This document shows, in pieces, positions 5,456 through 33,735 of a stretch of 64,000 bases of DNA. Positions within the stretch are counted from its first letter, which is position 1, and each line of letters starts with the position of its first letter. The stretch comes from Geobacillus thermoleovorans (lineage in GTDB: Bacteria; Bacillota; Bacilli; Bacillales; Anoxybacillaceae). The DNA is taken from the NCBI RefSeq assembly GCF_001610955.1, contig NZ_CP014335.1, forward strand, positions 2,613,001 through 2,677,000. The letters run 5' to 3'. The position numbers and the translations under genes were made by a program. The notes under the pieces were generated by a model. The model saw only the letters and a program-made list of their open reading frames with translations, did no database searches and was not told the origin of the DNA.

Positions 5456-6736
5456 ATGTTCCAATCGAAACGCCGCACGGCTTTGCTCATCGCCGTGCTG
5501 AGCGCCGGACTGGCGCTGCATCAAGCCGGACAAGATGCATGGGCCGCCCCAGCGAAACAATCGAAGCCGTCTGAGGTGAAAAATGTCGTCCTTTTTGTCG
5601 GCGACGGCATGGGCACAGCGCATCGCAACGCCATTCGCCTTGCCACAAAAGGGATCGCTGGAGAATTGGAGATGGACGATATGCCATACAGCGGGCTTGT
5701 CCATACGAACTCCGCCGACTCGAAGTCATTCATCACCGACTCCGCTGCGGCGGCGACCGCGATCGCCTCAGGCGTGAAAACGTACAACGGCGCCATCTCT
5801 GTTGATCTGCAAGGAAAACCAGTGGAAACGATTTTGGAACAAGCAAAAAAAGCCGGCAAGGCAACAGGGCTTGTCACGACCGCCCAAGTGACGGACGCCA
5901 CGCCGGCTGCGTTTGCCGCCCACACCGCCAATCGCTCTGCCCAAAGCGACATCGCCAAGCAATACATCGAACAAACGAAAGTGGATGTCATTTTGGGCGG
6001 CGGGGAAGATTACTGGTATCCTGCTGGAAATCCTGGCTATTACCCCGACCATCCAGCCGAAGATCCGGAAGAAGCAAGCAAAGGCACGCAAGGAAACTTG
6101 GTTGAACGCGCCAAGCAGCTCGGCTACACGTACGTCCGCACCGCCGATGAGCTGAAACAAGCGTCCGGCCGCAAGCTGCTTGGACTGTTTGCCAACGAAG
6201 AAATGTTCCAGCAGCGCCCCGAAGGAGAAGGAGATGTGTACAATCCCGTTGTGCCGCTGCCCGATATGACAAAAAAAGCGCTTGACGTGCTGTCGCAAAA
6301 TAAAAAGGGCTTTTTCCTCGTTGTCGAAGAAGAAGCCATTGATGAAATGAGCCATGAAAACAACGGATCGCTCATGATCAAAGCGGGCCAGCAGCTTGAC
6401 GAAGCGGTCGCCGTAGCGAAACAGTACGCCAAGCGCCATCGGGATACGCTCGTCCTCGTGCTCGCTGACCATGAATGCGGCGGCTTGACGATCGAAACGC
6501 CGGGCGGCACGGATGAGTCGGGAGACGGCAAAACGATCTCCGGCGAAGACGGTCCGTTTCCAATTGCCCGCTCTACGCAAACGTTCGCCCTCGACTGGAC
6601 GACAACAGGCCACACCGCCGCCGATGTGCCGCTGACTGCCATGGGCCCGGGAGCGGAGCGATTCACCGGCATTTATGAAAATACGCGCATTCATGACATT
6701 CTCGAACAATTATTGTTTGGAAAAAGCAGAAGATAA
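5456..6736 (+). CDS. Secreted alkaline phosphatase
   Basis: This 426-residue phosphomonoesterase of the alkaline phosphatase superfamily releases phosphate from organic esters outside the cell. A signal peptide (basic MFQSKRR, hydrophobic core, AWA-AP cleavage near residue 30) is clear. The first metal-binding stretch is LFVGDGMG (Asp50). The phosphorylated Ser is in TDSAAAATA (about Ser96). DHECGG and TTGHTAADVP supply the late zinc ligands. Length and motifs match Bacillus PhoA/PhoB. AGAGGAGAACG precedes the ATG. The Pho box upstream suggests induction on phosphate starvation. It is transcribed alone, divergent from marR, with a terminator directly after. Confidence 0.92.
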   Translation: MFQSKRRTALLIAVLSAGLALHQAGQDAWAAPAKQSKPSEVKNVVLFVGDGMGTAHRNAIRLATKGIAGELEMDDMPYSGLVHTNSADSKSFITDSAAAATAIASGVKTYNGAISVDLQGKPVETILEQAKKAGKATGLVTTAQVTDATPAAFAAHTANRSAQSDIAKQYIEQTKVDVILGGGEDYWYPAGNPGYYPDHPAEDPEEASKGTQGNLVERAKQLGYTYVRTADELKQASGRKLLGLFANEEMFQQRPEGEGDVYNPVVPLPDMTKKALDVLSQNKKGFFLVVEEEAIDEMSHENNGSLMIKAGQQLDEAVAVAKQYAKRHRDTLVLVLADHECGGLTIETPGGTDESGDGKTISGEDGPFPIARSTQTFALDWTTTGHTAADVPLTAMGPGAERFTGIYENTRIHDILEQLLFGKSRR

Positions 6737-6814: not shown

Positions 6815-6839
6815 TATCCATTCATCCATACTGATTGCC

Positions 6840-6976
6840 TAGAAGGGCGGTGAAAAAACAATCATTCCTGCAAATCGGTCATTTTTGATCAAAGAGAAAA
6901 ACAGATTTTACAAGGCTTATCAAATTGAAAAACACTGTTGTTGATTCACATTTTTCATTCAATCACCAGCCCTCTA
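6840..6976. repeat. Intergenic structured element, copy B
   Basis: A 137-bp element with terminal inverted repeats: TAGAAGGGCGGTGA at the left and TCACCAGCCCTCTA at the right pair with single-base bulges. It aligns end to end with the element at 30881-31016, sharing AAATCGGTCAT, CAAGGCTT-TCAA and TTTTTCATT. Differences fall as paired changes in the outer stem and in an inner stem (TTTGAT..AAG with CTTATCAAA). No reading frame lies in it. It occupies most of the 311-bp gap between the phosphatase and the crcB pair. Strand of action is unknown. Confidence 0.75.
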
Positions 6977-7047
6977 AAAGCAAGCCAAGAACGTTCTTTT
7001 TCACAATCAACTAATTAAGAAACAATGCTTGTTTTTCGGCGCTGCGG

Positions 7048-7398
7048 TCACCGCCCCACGTGATAGCCAAGCCACGCGAGCCACACGCCACACAAATACG
7101 TAGCCGCCAAATAAACGACAACCTTCGCCCATTGGCGTTGCTGCATCATTTGCACGCTTTCCCATTTTAAGGTCGAAAACGTGGTGAACGCGCCCATAAA
7201 GCCCGTGCCAACAAGCAGTTTTGCGGCATCGGCGGCGCCGCTTCCGGCGAGCCAGCCGAGCAAGAAGGACCCAAGCAAGTTGACAATGAGCGTCCCGAGC
7301 GGAAAACGCGGCGAACGCCGAGCCGTCCAGCGGCTGACGAGATAGCGGGCCATGGCGCCGAAAAAACCGCCGATCGCCACAAACAGCGGTGCGTACAT
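7048..7398 (-). CDS. crcB2: Fluoride exporter CrcB/Fluc, second subunit
   Basis: This 116-residue four-helix membrane protein of the CrcB/Fluc family is a fluoride-specific channel. It carries the family signature GTGFMGAFTTFSTLKWE, whose Phe and Thr residues line the pore, and NLLGSFLLGW in helix 2. The start is the ATG at 7396-7398, which overlaps the stop of the upstream crcB copy by 1 bp (TAATG). Two adjacent small CrcB genes in Bacilli usually encode the two halves of an antiparallel heterodimer. The upstream fluoride riboswitch controls both. Confidence 0.92.
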   Translation of the reverse strand: MYAPLFVAIGGFFGAMARYLVSRWTARRSPRFPLGTLIVNLLGSFLLGWLAGSGAADAAKLLVGTGFMGAFTTFSTLKWESVQMMQQRQWAKVVVYLAATYLCGVWLAWLGYHVGR

Positions 7399-7787
7399 TA
7401 TCCAATCCCTTCCTTCCGTTCCGGTTGAGCGGCGGCATATCCAGCCCATGAGGCGAGCAACCCGCCAAACAGGCTGGCAGCGATATAAACGGCCGCCATG
7501 CCAAAGCGCCCTTGTTCCATCAATTCCACACATTCAACACTAAGCGTCGAAAACGTCGTATACGAACCGACGAACCCGGTCGTTACGGCTGTTTTCAGCC
7601 ATGGCGGCCACGCGGGGCGGCGGGTGAACATCACGGTGAACCAGCTGAGCAAAAACGAGCCTGTCCAGTTGATGAAAAGCGTCCCGAGCGGAAAGCCGCC
7701 GACGGCGGCGGCGGGAACAACCAAACCGAGGCCATAGCGGACAAGCGCGCCGATCATGCCGGCGATGCCGACAGCGAGATAGACCAA
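7398..7787 (-). CDS. crcB1: Fluoride exporter CrcB/Fluc, first subunit
   Basis: This CrcB/Fluc membrane protein of about 129 residues has TTGFVGSYTTFSTLSVE as the pore signature and NWTGSFLLSW in helix 2. I place the start at TTG 7785-7787 because AAGGAGG lies 8 nt before it. An ATG at 7830-7832 in the same frame would add 15 residues but lies inside the terminator hairpin of the riboswitch and has no ribosome site. It is the first gene of the two-gene fluoride-export operon, overlapping the second by 1 bp. Expression should rise when the riboswitch binds fluoride. Confidence 0.9.
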   Translation of the reverse strand: MVYLAVGIAGMIGALVRYGLGLVVPAAAVGGFPLGTLFINWTGSFLLSWFTVMFTRRPAWPPWLKTAVTTGFVGSYTTFSTLSVECVELMEQGRFGMAAVYIAASLFGGLLASWAGYAAAQPERKEGIG

Positions 7788-7805: not shown

Positions 7806-7847
7806 AAAATGAACAGACTCCTGCCGCTTCAATTTGCAGCAGGAGTC
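7806..7847 (-). terminator. Riboswitch-controlled terminator before crcB1
   Basis: On the minus strand GACTCCTGC pairs with GCAGGAGTC (9 bp), followed by TGTTCATTTTTGG. The left arm includes the conserved end of the fluoride aptamer, so ligand binding and terminator formation compete. This is the expression platform. Confidence 0.85.
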
Positions 7848-7890
7848 ATCAGCCGGAAGCCGGCGGTTATGGCGAACTCCATCGCCTATT
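7838..7890 (-). ncRNA. Fluoride riboswitch (crcB motif)
   Basis: The minus strand carries the conserved crcB-motif core: GGCGATGGAGTTCGCC (7871-7886), then ATAACCGCC, a GGCTTCCGGC-type hairpin, and GCTGATGACTCCTGC at the 3' end. This matches the fluoride aptamer consensus closely. It is followed by a terminator and by two fluoride exporter genes. A likely extended -10 (TGGTAAAAT, about 7906-7914) lies just upstream. Confidence 0.95.
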
Positions 7891-7943
7891 CGATTGGCAT
7901 CGCCTTTATTTTACCATATATCCCCTCCCAATGGGAAGCAGAT

Positions 7944-13650: not shown

Positions 13651-13925
13651 ATAAAAAAAACCCGCCCCGGTAAGGGACGAGTTGTTGCTCGCGGTACCAC
13701 CCTTGTTAACAGCATAAGCGTGCTGTTCACTTCATTGCGATAACGGCCGAAAGCCGGAACACCTTTACATCCCTCGTCGGGATGGTCCCGGTGTCAACTC
13801 AGGAGGTGAACTTCACTTGCGCCGGCCATAAAAACGCTCCCAGTCTATGGCGTTTTCTCCCTGGATGGCGAACAGCAAGCTACTTTTCTCCGTCATCGTT
13901 GTTGTCCGTATGGGAAATTGTCGCT
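13651..13925 (-). ncRNA. T-box leader of pheST (Phe)
   Basis: The minus-strand leader carries the T-box sequence AGGGTGGTACCGCG (about 13690-13703). It is followed by a terminator: AACTCGTCCC, then a short loop, then GGGGCGGGTT with eight T (13651-13685). Upstream is a stem I region with candidate specifier codon TTC (13808-13810) in AGTGAAGTTCACC, fitting phenylalanine. Uncharged tRNA-Phe should favour readthrough into pheST. Confidence 0.93.
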
Positions 13926-19999: not shown

Positions 20000-20212
20000 G
20001 AGCCACCTCCAAGGTTTTTTCCGACTGGCTTGTTTGCCAGCAGAGCCCCACTTCCAGCCCAAAAAAAAGCGCAGATGCACAAAGCACCCGCGCAGTACGT
20101 CCTTACACTCGCATTGACGAACCGTAACAACCTGCCAACAGCCGTCTTGGCGTCGGTCAGGTGAGAAGCGGGGTGCTTCTGCTTTTGTTACAAACAAGCA
20201 ATCATTCCACTT
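20000..20212 (-). ncRNA. L20-type leader with attenuator of infC-rpmI-rplT
   Basis: About 210 nt separate the promoter from infC. The minus strand holds a hairpin GCAGAAGCACCCCGCTTCTC near 20165-20185, then a GCGC-GGTGC/GCATC-GCGC hairpin followed by eight T (20061-20093), an intrinsic terminator inside the leader. Bacillus infC operons are known to be repressed by L20 binding to such a leader; that mode is inferred here from position and layout. Confidence 0.75.
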
Positions 20213-22410: not shown

Positions 22411-22680
22411 AAAAATAAAAAAACTCCTCCCTCCTAAAGGGACGAGTTTTCATCGTGGTTCCACCCTTCTTCCCATGGCAGCGCCTCGCCATGCCATGGC
22501 TCAACAAGAATAACGGTCGTCCACCGGCGGCAACTACTGGGCGTTGCGTTCGCTGCCGCAGCTCTGAGGGGGTAAGCGCATTTTTCGTGTTAGGAAGGTT
22601 CCAGCCGCTGCCTTCCCTCTCTGGAAACCGTAAAAATGCACCCATGTCCTCGTCATCGCTTGTATTCATCCATATTCATG
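22411..22680 (-). ncRNA. T-box leader of thrS (Thr)
   Basis: The minus strand carries T-box sequence AAGGGTGGAACCACG (about 22454-22468). A terminator follows: AACTCGTCCC, loop, GGGAGGAGTT with seven T (22413-22447). The stem I region upstream has AGAGAGGGAAGG and a candidate specifier ACC in CGCTTACCCCCTCAG, fitting threonine. Confidence 0.92.
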
Positions 22681-29894: not shown

Positions 29895-30719
29895 CTAGCG
29901 CTGGCAGCGCGGGCAATAATGCGTGCCGCGGCCGGCGACGACCGTTTTTTCAATCGGCGTGCCGCATCGTTTGCACGGACTGCCTTGGCGGCCATACACG
30001 TACAAATGATGTTGAAACGTGCCGGCCTCGCCTTGCGTGTTCACATACGTGCGCACCGTGCTTCCCCCTTTCATGACCGCCTCGCCGATCGTCGCCACCA
30101 TTTCCTCATGCAGGCGCTCGATCTCTTTGCTGGAGAGAGAAGCGGCCGGCCGGCCGGGAAGAATGCCGGCGCGAAACAGCGATTCGTCGACATAAATATT
30201 GCCAAACCCAGCCACGACCGTCTGATCAAGGAGCAACGCTTTGACCGACCGTTTCGTTTTCACCGCCCGCTCCGCCAATACAGCTGGGGAAAACGCCGGG
30301 GAAAGCGGCTCCGGCCCAAGCTCAGCAAGCGGCGGCCGACGGTCAGCTTCTTCTTTGGCATAAACGTGCATCGTTCCGAACTTGCGCACGTCGCGGTAAC
30401 GGAGTTCGCTGCCGTCCGTGAAGCAAAACACGACGTGCGTATGCGGTTCGAGCGGCTCGAGGGCAGAAGCAACGGCGTAGCGCCCTTCCATGCGCAAATG
30501 GGAAATGAGTGCATCGCGGTCGAGCAGGAATTTCAAAAACTTCCCTCTCCGTTCCAAACCACGCACCGTCTGTCCGATCATTCTTGCCGCAAACTCCTCG
30601 GGGTCTCGCGGATGGCGGATGATGTTCGGCCAAAAGATGCGCACATCCTCAATCGTTTTTCCGACAATAAGCGGCAAAAGCGTACGACGGATCGTTTCCA
30701 CCTCCGGCAATTCCGGCAT
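29895..30719 (-). CDS. mutM: Formamidopyrimidine-DNA glycosylase
   Basis: A 274-residue bifunctional Fpg glycosylase/AP lyase that removes 8-oxoguanine. The start is ATG 30717-30719, giving MPELPEVETIRR; Pro2 must be N-terminal because it is the nucleophile, and Glu3 is catalytic. The helix-two-turn-helix region and the C-terminal zinc finger CKRCGTPIEKTVVAGRGTHYCPRC are complete. AGGAAAGGGGGG precedes the ATG. Length equals the well-studied B. stearothermophilus MutM. A 136-bp repeat element lies between it and polA. Confidence 0.96.
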   Translation of the reverse strand: MPELPEVETIRRTLLPLIVGKTIEDVRIFWPNIIRHPRDPEEFAARMIGQTVRGLERRGKFLKFLLDRDALISHLRMEGRYAVASALEPLEPHTHVVFCFTDGSELRYRDVRKFGTMHVYAKEEADRRPPLAELGPEPLSPAFSPAVLAERAVKTKRSVKALLLDQTVVAGFGNIYVDESLFRAGILPGRPAASLSSKEIERLHEEMVATIGEAVMKGGSTVRTYVNTQGEAGTFQHHLYVYGRQGSPCKRCGTPIEKTVVAGRGTHYCPRCQR

Positions 30720-30880
30720 GGCGATCCCCCCTTTCCTCCGTTTTCCTGCATCGTTCCCGCCGACGCTTTCGCATTGACGCCGGTTCATCCGCCGAGAGAA
30801 AGATTCTCCATGGGGCGGCAGCTGTTTCGCTCCAATTCATCGAGTTGCAACCGAGAATCGTCGCACCGAAAGATTCTGCC
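30720..30880. other. Left part of the polA-mutM gap
   Basis: No gene is seen. The mutM ribosome site lies at its left end and the structured repeat begins at 30881. Two copies of GAAAGATTCT (about 30799 and 30868) are present. Confidence 0.5.
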
Positions 30881-31016
30881 TAGAAGGCCGGTGAGAAACG
30901 CTGATTTTCGCAAAATCGGTCATGTTGGTTGAGAAGGACGACTCGATGTTCCAAGGCTTCTCAACTGGAGAAGAGTCGTTGTGAAACTGCTTTTTCATTG
31001 CATCACAGGCCTTCTT
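30881..31016. repeat. Intergenic structured element, copy A
   Basis: A 136-bp element whose ends AGAAGGCC-GGTGA and TCAC-AGGCCTTCT pair at 12 of 13 positions. Inside, GTTGAGAAG (30928-30936) pairs with CTTCTCAAC (30957-30965), and ACGACTC (30938-30944) pairs with GAGTCGT (30973-30979). The two helices interleave, giving a pseudoknot order 1-2-1'-2'. It aligns with 6840-6976. It lies between polA and mutM in an operon-like series and has no reading frame. Confidence 0.75.
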
Positions 31017-31049
31017 AAGGGTGCCGGCGATCCACACCAAGACTCCTTT

Positions 31050-33680
31050 TTATTTCGCGTCATACCACGTCGAGCCATAATGGTAATCGACTTTGAGCGG
31101 CACGCGAAGTGTGACCGCTTGCTCCATCACTTCCGGAACGAGCCGGCACAGCCGCTCCATCTCTTCTTTCGGCGCCTCCAAAATGAGCTCGTCATGCACC
31201 TGCAGCAAAAGGCGCGCTTGCAGCCGCTCTTCCTTCAGTCTGGCGTTCAGATCGATCATCGCCTTTTTAATAATGTCAGCGGCGCTCCCTTGAATCGGCG
31301 TGTTCATCGCCATCCGTTCAGCAAAGCTGCGGACGTTGAAGTTGCGGCTCGTGATATCCGGCAAATAGCGGCGCCGATGCAGCAGCGTCGTCACATACCC
31401 TTTCTGTTTTGCTTCTTGCACAATGTTTTCCATATACCGCTTCACGCCAGGGAAGCTTTCGAAGTAGCGCTCGATGAATTCAGCGGCCTCTTTGCGTGAA
31501 ATATTTAAGTTTTGCGCCAAGCCGTAATCACTGATCCCGTAAACGATCCCAAAGTTGACCGCCTTCGCCTGACGGCGCATGTTGGGCGTCACTTCGTCCT
31601 CGCTCACTTGGAAAATGTCCATCGCTGTTTTCGTATGGATATCCAAATCGCGGCGGAACGCTTCCATTAAATTGTCATCTTCCGCAATATGGGCGAGGAC
31701 GCGCAACTCAATTTGCGAGTAGTCGGCAGCGAAAATGAGCCAATCAGACTCCGACGGCACGAACGCTTGGCGGATTTTCCGTCCTTCCTCAAGCCGAATC
31801 GGAATGTTTTGCAAGTTCGGCTCCGTCGAGCTGAGCCGTCCGGTTTGCGTCAACGCCTGATTGAAAATCGTATGCACCTTCTTTGTATCGGGTCGCACGA
31901 CTTTCAGCAATCCTTCAATATACGTCGACTGCAACTTGCCAAGCTGGCGGTAATGCAAAATGTTTTCCACGATCTCGTGATAAGGCGCAAGTTTTTCAAG
32001 CACATCCGCCGAAGTGGAGTAGCCGGTTTTCGTTTTTTTCAAGACGGGCAGCTGCAGTTTTTCAAATAAAATGACGCCGAGCTGTTTCGGTGAATTGATG
32101 TTGAATTCTTGGCCGGCGAGCTCATAAATGCGCTGCTCGACCGTGCACAGCTGCTCGGCGAGCTCTTCGCCCATCTGTTCGAGCCGCTTCGTATCCACTT
32201 TCACTCCGGCAAATTCCATTTCCGCCAAAATCGAAGACAACGGCTGCTCGAGCTCGACGAGCAACCGATCTTGTTCGTTGCGGCGCAGCTCATCCAAAAA
32301 CGGCCGTTCGAGCGCCCAAATCGCCGCCGCCTTGCGGACCAAATGCTCGGCGAGCACTGGCTCATCCGGCACGGCCCGCTTCGCCCCTTTGCCATACACC
32401 GCTTCATCCGGGCGCACCGCTTCGTATTGCTTCATTTTTGCTGCGGCAGCCACATCATCAACACCTTGCGCCGGATCAAGCAAATAGGCGGCCAGCAATA
32501 AATCAAAGGAAACGCCGCATAGCTCAATTCCTTTCCATTTCAAGGCGACTGCCGCGCGCTTTGAGTCAAACATGCTTTTTTTCTTCGTTTCATCACCAAG
32601 CCAGGCGACAAACTGCGGATCGGCAAGCGCCGTCTCCGGGCGCAGGAAAAACCGTCCATGTTCGTTGACCACAGCGATGCCGACGATCGGCGCATCATGA
32701 TAATTTTCCTCGACCACTTCAACGACAAGCGCCGCCTTGTCGGCAAGCATCTCCTCCGTCACGCGGTCAGCAAGCGTAAATGCCATCTTGGCAAGCGGTT
32801 TTTCCTCTTCTGATGACGGCGATTCCATTTTCTCTAAAAACGATTGAAACCCAAGCTCTTTAAATAAAGCGACCACTTTCTCCCGGTCTTCCCCTTGATA
32901 GACGATGTCATCAAGCGAGAGCTCGACCGGGGCGTCGCGGCGAATGGCGGCGAGCTTTTTGCTTAACAGCGCCATCTCCCGGTGTTGGCGCAGCGTTTCT
33001 TTCAACTTTTCGCCTTTGATCTCGTCAATGGAGGCAAGCACGTTTTCGACCGTGCCGAATTGCCTGAGCAGCTTGACCGCCGTCTTTTCCCCGATGCCCG
33101 GCACTCCGGGGATGTTGTCCGATTTGTCGCCCATCAATCCTTTCAAATCAACGATTTGTTCCGGAGTTAAGCCGTATTTTTCGCGGACCGTCTCCGGCGT
33201 GTACGGTTCGATATCGGTAATCCCTTTTTTCGTAATGTCCACCGTCACATGGGGGGAGGCGAGCTGGGTCAGATCGCGGTCGCCGGAAATGACTTTCACC
33301 TCAAACCCTTCCTGCTCAGCGCGGGCGGCAAGCGTTCCGATAATATCGTCCGCTTCGTAGTTCTCGAGTTCATAGGCGGGGATGCGATACGCCCTCAGCA
33401 GCTCGCGCAACAGCGGAAACTGCTCCGACAGCTCCGGTGGCGTCTGTTGGCGCCCACCTTTATACTCTTGAAACGCTTCATGCCGGAACGTCGTTTTCCC
33501 GGCGTCAAACGCGACAAGCATATGAGTTGGCTCTTCTTCCGCCAAAATTTTATTCAACATCATCGTAAACCCGTAGACGGCGTTCGTATGGATGCCTTTG
33601 TCGTTATGCAAAAGCGGCAAGGCGAAAAAGGCGCGGTACGCCACGCTGCTGCCGTCGATTAAAACAAGCTTTTTTTTCAA
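31050..33680 (-). CDS. polA: DNA polymerase I (Bst-type)
   Basis: A 876-residue family-A polymerase for Okazaki-fragment processing and repair. Residues 1-300 are the 5'-nuclease (LVLIDGSSVAYRAFF, GDRDLTQL, GLMGDKSDNIPGVPGIGEKTA). Residues of about 300-470 are an exonuclease-like domain in which the catalytic DxE is gone (AALVVEVVEENYH), so no proofreading is expected. The polymerase domain has DYSQIELRVLAHI (motif A), RRQAKAVNFGIVYG (B) and QVHDELILE (C). It is near identical in kind to the Bst enzyme. The start is TTG 33678-33680, 7 nt after AGGAGG; ATG two codons upstream touches the ribosome site. Confidence 0.96.
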   Translation of the reverse strand: MKKKLVLIDGSSVAYRAFFALPLLHNDKGIHTNAVYGFTMMLNKILAEEEPTHMLVAFDAGKTTFRHEAFQEYKGGRQQTPPELSEQFPLLRELLRAYRIPAYELENYEADDIIGTLAARAEQEGFEVKVISGDRDLTQLASPHVTVDITKKGITDIEPYTPETVREKYGLTPEQIVDLKGLMGDKSDNIPGVPGIGEKTAVKLLRQFGTVENVLASIDEIKGEKLKETLRQHREMALLSKKLAAIRRDAPVELSLDDIVYQGEDREKVVALFKELGFQSFLEKMESPSSEEEKPLAKMAFTLADRVTEEMLADKAALVVEVVEENYHDAPIVGIAVVNEHGRFFLRPETALADPQFVAWLGDETKKKSMFDSKRAAVALKWKGIELCGVSFDLLLAAYLLDPAQGVDDVAAAAKMKQYEAVRPDEAVYGKGAKRAVPDEPVLAEHLVRKAAAIWALERPFLDELRRNEQDRLLVELEQPLSSILAEMEFAGVKVDTKRLEQMGEELAEQLCTVEQRIYELAGQEFNINSPKQLGVILFEKLQLPVLKKTKTGYSTSADVLEKLAPYHEIVENILHYRQLGKLQSTYIEGLLKVVRPDTKKVHTIFNQALTQTGRLSSTEPNLQNIPIRLEEGRKIRQAFVPSESDWLIFAADYSQIELRVLAHIAEDDNLMEAFRRDLDIHTKTAMDIFQVSEDEVTPNMRRQAKAVNFGIVYGISDYGLAQNLNISRKEAAEFIERYFESFPGVKRYMENIVQEAKQKGYVTTLLHRRRYLPDITSRNFNVRSFAERMAMNTPIQGSAADIIKKAMIDLNARLKEERLQARLLLQVHDELILEAPKEEMERLCRLVPEVMEQAVTLRVPLKVDYHYGSTWYDAK

Positions 33681-33735
33681 TCTCATCCCTCCTCGGATGC
33701 TTCCTTGTCCTATTGTACCATGCCTGCGGCTTGCC

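Follow-up and report, generated by a model that had tools for sequence, protein, structure and literature searches.

The window, that is, the whole 64-kb stretch of DNA analysed here, holds two related intergenic sequences, one between polA and mutM (copy A) and one flanked by crcB and a gene resembling alkaline phosphatase (copy B). Each comprises a core with a 4-mer on either side, and the features of the two sites are as follows.

5456–6736: alkaline phosphatase-like gene flanking copy B (NCBIfam 210 bits, below the model cut-off of 540)
6839–6842: left target 4-mer of copy B, CTAG
6843–6973, plus strand: copy B of the MITE, 131-bp core, in the interval between the alkaline phosphatase-like gene and crcB (BLAST, model match)
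6974–6977: right 4-mer of copy B, CTAA, one base off CTAG
7048–7533, minus strand: crcB, flanking copy B
start near 30719, minus strand: mutM, flanking copy A (start judged from the onset of the family match)
30880–30883: left target 4-mer of copy A, CTAG (from the sequence)
30884–31013, plus strand: copy A of the MITE, 130-bp core, in the polA–mutM interval (BLAST, model match)
30884–30894, plus strand: left terminal inverted repeat of copy A, AAGGCCGGTGA
31003–31013, plus strand: right terminal inverted repeat of copy A, TCACAGGCCTT
31014–31017: right 4-mer of copy A, CTTA, presumably a decayed target repeat
31050–33686, minus strand: polA, flanking copy A

The stretches 30880–31017 and 6839–6977 are homologous end to end and both contain the blocks AAATCGGTCAT and TTTTTCATT, as a sequence-only reading of this DNA had proposed; when copy A is compared by BLAST with its own genome, copy B is recovered at 69% identity (E = 9.9e-6). 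The same reading had correctly set copy A between polA and mutM, and its placing of copy B after phoA is essentially right, in that the gene is alkaline phosphatase-like but falls under the NCBIfam cut-off, with crcB on the other side. No third copy was detected in the 64-kb window by a model search at E ≤ 0.1, for which A and B both belonged to the training set. Known RNA elements in the window lie at 7833–7895, 13670–13905, 20057–20190 and 22435–22665 (minus strand), and comprise a fluoride riboswitch near crcB, two T-box leaders and an L20 leader.

Beyond the window, the two copies belong to a family with at least 783 model matches (E ≤ 1e-3) in all 14 genomes of the genus, and 53 of these matches are in the window's genome. 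The search model was sequence-only, built from 16 copies and applied to up to 150 candidates per genome, a ceiling reached in G017; the small alignment began with 17 copies and was reduced to 16 by omitting L034, whose ends were mislocated. Across 41 genomes and nine genera of the wider taxonomic family, 12 genomes from two genera contain relatives by BLAST with copy A (E ≤ 1e-3), and 18 genomes from four genera contain matches by a model search with stricter filters (E ≤ 1e-5). Outside the window's genus, the latter search yields eight matches in 4 of 27 genomes. The exact pattern of both ends occurs in 13 stretches, every one of them in a named Geobacillus species. The family is bounded by terminal inverted repeats, AAGGCCGGTGA ... 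TCACCGGCCTT, and allowing up to two mismatches the end motif is found 34 times in the window's genome and 237 times in G017, against one occurrence each for a reversed control pattern. The count in G017 is the heaviest end-motif load of the 14 genomes, and this genome also has several same-strand end-motif pairs at a spacing of about 134 bp, a pattern like that of tandem copies with one common CTAG.

For the analysis of individual insertions, 264 profile hits gave 251 that were near full length with flanks, and removal of 123 repeated or orthologous sites left 128 distinct sites. The 100 regions that were fetched had been picked by hand, mostly from near-full-length rows of the model matches, and are a selected rather than a random sample. 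The median core at the 128 sites is 131 bp, too short for a transposase gene.

The 4-mers outside the inverted ends are mostly CTAG, CTAA, TTAG, TTAA or ATAG, and they discriminate between the two main readings of the element. If they extended an RNA stem, TTAG would have to stand opposite CTAA, whereas a target duplication requires TTAG on both sides; CTAG and TTAA are uninformative because, being palindromes, they look alike as stem or duplication. Identical 4-mers flank the core at 93 of the 128 sites, and 85 of those follow the pattern NTAR (CTAG/CTAG 53, TTAG/TTAG 15, CTAA/CTAA 11, ATAG/ATAG 4 and TTAA/TTAA 2). Setting aside the sites with palindromes on both sides leaves 73, of which 38 carry direct repeats, none inverted ones and 35 neither. 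When the right-hand 4-mers were shuffled among sites in 2,000 trials, direct repeats averaged 4.4 and never exceeded 11. A stem requires inverted 4-mers, and the 38 direct against zero inverted cases therefore identify a transposon and not a stem. Unequal 4-mers are present at 35 of the 128 sites, both window copies included: neither has a perfect target repeat today (CTAG/CTTA for A, CTAG/CTAA for B), and in the orthologues of copy A in G029 and G024 the left 4-mer is CTAA. Moreover, 14 of the 128 copies directly adjoin a further end with a 4-mer common to both, an arrangement that is expected if the CTAG at the edge of an element is itself a target.

The sequence-only reading had interpreted the changes between A and B as covarying stems with a possible pseudoknot and had concluded that selection acts on RNA structure. 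Some pairs do change in a matching way between the two copies, and the terminal inverted repeat and a hairpin at alignment columns 74–90 can pair in most copies. We therefore examined covariation in 126 of the 128 copies (two were removed because of gaps or identity), scoring 8,128 pairs of columns at least four apart in a 131-column alignment by an APC-corrected G-test. The null came from 40 alignments simulated on the tree, in our own implementation in the spirit of R-scape, which is distinct from R-scape itself. None of the 8,128 pairs rose above the phylogenetic null at E < 0.05 (best E = 4.2), a result that has little power in nearly invariant columns. In a positive control with 20 null alignments, a 7-bp stem implanted in columns with 8–28 changes was recovered at all seven pairs when noise-free (E = 0), at six of seven with 10% noise (the other at E = 13.2) and at four of seven below 0.05 with 20% noise (the others at 0.15, 0.35 and 5.3). 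Several hairpin columns change only one to seven times and the end columns are nearly invariant, and the test says little there. Thus the larger alignment, which had been set beforehand as the test that could refute selection on base pairing, leaves that headline inference unsupported. The compensatory changes that seemed to be present had been read from two sequences.

The individual stems fare differently from one another. The outer stem is real, being paired in 75% of cells, but its nature is that of a terminal inverted repeat. The first inner stem is paired in 61% of cells without significant covariation, and the second, on which the pseudoknot depended, is at background level, being paired in 36% of cells when column pairs overall average 38%. 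The hairpin at columns 74–90 is 81–98% paired per position in the helix list; two rows of the stem table ('inner P1 B' and 'hairpin R') are invalid, because the second arm was located too early in the sequence, and the hairpin discussed here is that of columns 74–90 throughout. The helix scan also lists further short helices, one of which (columns 48–52 with 109–113) has double changes in 61 of 630 cells. Of the five top column pairs in the covariation test, 28–45 is complementary in 87% of copies and 24–45 in 80%, which counts in favour of a structured RNA, and the three others in at most 43%; the two complementary pairs have one column in common and E values of 10–11, and we read the top pairs as a subfamily signal.

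Folding and database comparisons agree with the covariation result. Single-copy folds are ordinary relative to shuffled sequences (z = −0.78 for A and −0.95 for B, with 41 of 200 shuffles as good for each copy), and an RNAalifold consensus of 16 copies contains 20 pairs, in none of which both partners change so as to preserve pairing. Neither element matches any of 4,227 Rfam families at the gathering threshold; a relaxed search with copy A returned only sub-threshold snoRNA and lncRNA matches. A pseudoknotted, structured non-coding RNA that exists as two copies and is maintained by selection on its base pairing would in addition have to accommodate direct rather than inverted flanking 4-mers and copies that are dispersed and polymorphic in their presence, and we regard it as highly improbable. 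The likeness of the window copies stems from transposition, not from RNA structure, and the family is a MITE rather than a new structured RNA. Two diverged copies of a MITE can thus imitate RNA covariation, and what settles such a case is whether the flanking 4-mers are direct or inverted, together with more copies.

Comparison of orthologous sites is in line with mobility. The polA end is kept in all 14 genus genomes, and, read by eye, the element is visible at the copy A site in three of them (G000, which is the window's genome, G029 and G024) and absent from the examined stretch in the other 11. Between fixed anchors, the polA–mutM interval measures 220–221 bp where the element is present and 85 bp in G026 and G028, which lack it. 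At the copy B site, a flank was matched in 10 of 14 genus genomes, and the element is present in one of the nine read by eye, the window's own; that count leaves out G020, in which the flank match is 57 bp. The empty site of copy B is weaker, as the similarity of relatives ends a short way past the junction, the rest of the intergenic region being rearranged. From 128 queries, 17 junction-spanning hits were obtained, and five sites were judged clean by eye (L001, L021, L183, L217 and L229). The empty site for L183 spans only 76 bp, and the other junction hits were discarded as self matches, nested or tandem copies, or cases unclear for other reasons. In one of the clean examples, L217 carries a copy flanked by CTAG on both sides, and its counterpart L008 in the window's genome matches over 205 bp at 94.6% identity and contains a single CTAG. 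Taken together, short cores, inverted ends, direct target repeats, dispersed copies and empty sites bear out the MITE-like mobile element that the sequence-only reading had listed among its options.

A candidate partner for the MITE occurs in relatives. In G018, two inward-facing ends 1.54 kb apart enclose a gene for a 487-aa transposase with DDE_Tnp_1, DUF772 and DDE_Tnp_1_6 domains. Its best NCBIfam model is IS1182, at 215.2 bits (E = 1.8e-63) and below the cut-off of 270; the best-scoring IS5 model gives 103.6 bits, below its cut-off of 140. Relatives of this transposase (E ≤ 1e-10, fragments and distant matches included) occur at 53 places in 11 of the 14 genus genomes. Both ends are present at all of the first 13 of these 53 places, and 10 of the 13 have identical flanking 4-mers (CTAG, CTAA or ATAG), with CTAA/CTAA seen twice and ATAG/ATAG once; the exceptions are L074 and L075, with ATAG/CTAG, and L085, with TTAG/CTAA, which is inverted and not direct. 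The MITE and the insertion sequence have the left end AAGGCCGGTGAAAAA in common and similar right ends, CATTAAATCACC(A/G)GCCTT in the MITE consensus and CATTAATTCACCGGCCTT in the insertion sequence. When MITE cores were compared with the insertion sequence by BLAST (E ≤ 0.05), 153 of 161 hits fell in the two end bins and eight outside them. A looser comparison (E ≤ 1) had placed 191 of 437 hits in the interior; this internal likeness looks like chance, given the 8 of 161 at the stricter threshold. Because the interiors are unrelated, the MITE is not a simple deletion derivative of the insertion sequence.

These sequence comparisons show that the MITE has its ends and its kind of target repeat in common with an insertion sequence, that its own target repeats are direct, and that its copies are dispersed over sites which can be found both filled and empty; the element is probably mobilised by a transposon whose ends match its own. 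We consider it very probable that the family as a whole is a MITE whose ends would be recognised by the DDE transposase of the related insertion sequence, with a 4-bp direct duplication at NTAR. In the proposed mechanism, that transposase would recognise the 11–15 bp ends of the MITE and insert it at NTAR sites, most of them YTAR, with a 4-bp direct duplication of the target left behind. We infer that the partner transposase performs this step in trans. The finding defines the ends and the target preference of a repeat that is frequent in a thermophilic genus, proposes a likely transposase for it, and accounts for 53 matches in the window's genome.

No transposase match at E ≤ 1e-10 was found in the window's genome, G025 or G029. 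Since the window's genome contains no recognisable copy of the partner transposase, its MITE copies are probably stranded now. The combination of 53 MITE matches and no such transposase could also be taken to mean that a different, unrecognised transposase with similar ends mobilises the MITE. We think this unlikely: the ends, the subterminal bases and the target repeats all agree with those of the partner insertion sequence, and among the 68 end matches listed for the window's genome (up to three mismatches, read by eye) there is no inward-facing pair 0.6–3 kb apart.

Within the MITE, alignment columns 69–90, AAGGNTTCTCNANTTGAGAA, are over much of their length about as conserved as the ends, and the neighbouring interior varies. 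This block includes the palindrome TTCTCNANTTGAGAA, which is found with up to two mismatches in 116 of the 128 cores and is absent from the insertion-sequence copy L066. Its arms could form a hairpin in most copies, with no significant covariation and with several columns that vary little. The palindrome may aid transposition, serve as a binding site for a host protein or function at the RNA level. On the strength of this conservation, the interior might be kept for a cellular or RNA role besides mobility, as a terminator, a processing site or a protein binding site. At the two window loci, however, copies are seen in only 3 of 14 and 1 of 9 genomes rather than being conserved, and the conservation of the palindrome may reflect common ancestry or a requirement of transposition. 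We accordingly give such a role a low probability beside a plain MITE. Slightly more doubtful still is that the palindrome has a function of its own, as an accessory site for a host protein or the transposase or as a hairpin for RNA processing or termination; if it did, dozens of dispersed copies would make it a common regulatory or processing element of the Geobacillus genome.

A MITE with an identified partner is a kind already well known, as in MITEAba12 of Acinetobacter. According to its description (PMC6382973), that element is likewise nonautonomous and derived from an insertion sequence, with an autonomous parent insertion sequence proposed and its target duplications studied. It differs in host group and in partner, the Geobacillus partner being IS5/IS1182-like with the target NTAR. 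Our search of the open-access literature, which did not extend to ISfinder or to most subscription journals, found no description of the Geobacillus MITE, and a registered name is possible.

The partner resembles two families of insertion sequence in different respects. IS5 has the target motif YTAR and makes 4-bp YTAR target duplications (PMC10359306); the repeats of the partner are CTAG or CTAA, with ATAG/ATAG as a single exception. Public records assign some of the transposases closest to that of the partner to the IS5 family. The partner transposase nevertheless falls below the NCBIfam IS5 cut-off, and the two are likened by target motif and records, not by the ends of IS5 itself. The likeness to the IS1182 family lies in the best NCBIfam model, albeit below cut-off. 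IS1272, of the IS1182 family, is described as replacing a target stem-loop, unlike canonical target duplication, which according to PMC5678879 not all IS1182 members do; the partner differs from IS1272 in having identical 4-bp repeats at 10 of the first 13 of its 53 places. IS711 of Brucella is reported to use the same YTAR site and to duplicate only TA (PMC2266754).

A transposase in Anoxybacteroides amylolyticum is 97% identical to that of the partner, which suggests transfer between genera. A Geobacillus plasmid carries a copy of the transposase at 92% identity. NCBI uses the label 'IS5-like element ISGka1 family' for a 92% identical transposase, and ISGka1 is also the name of an IS701 element in PMC8024623; we have avoided the name for the partner because two elements bear it. 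In G008, which belongs to another genus, a relative of the MITE (L019:1501–1532 and beyond) has only about 86 bp between its ends and still has CTAG on both sides.
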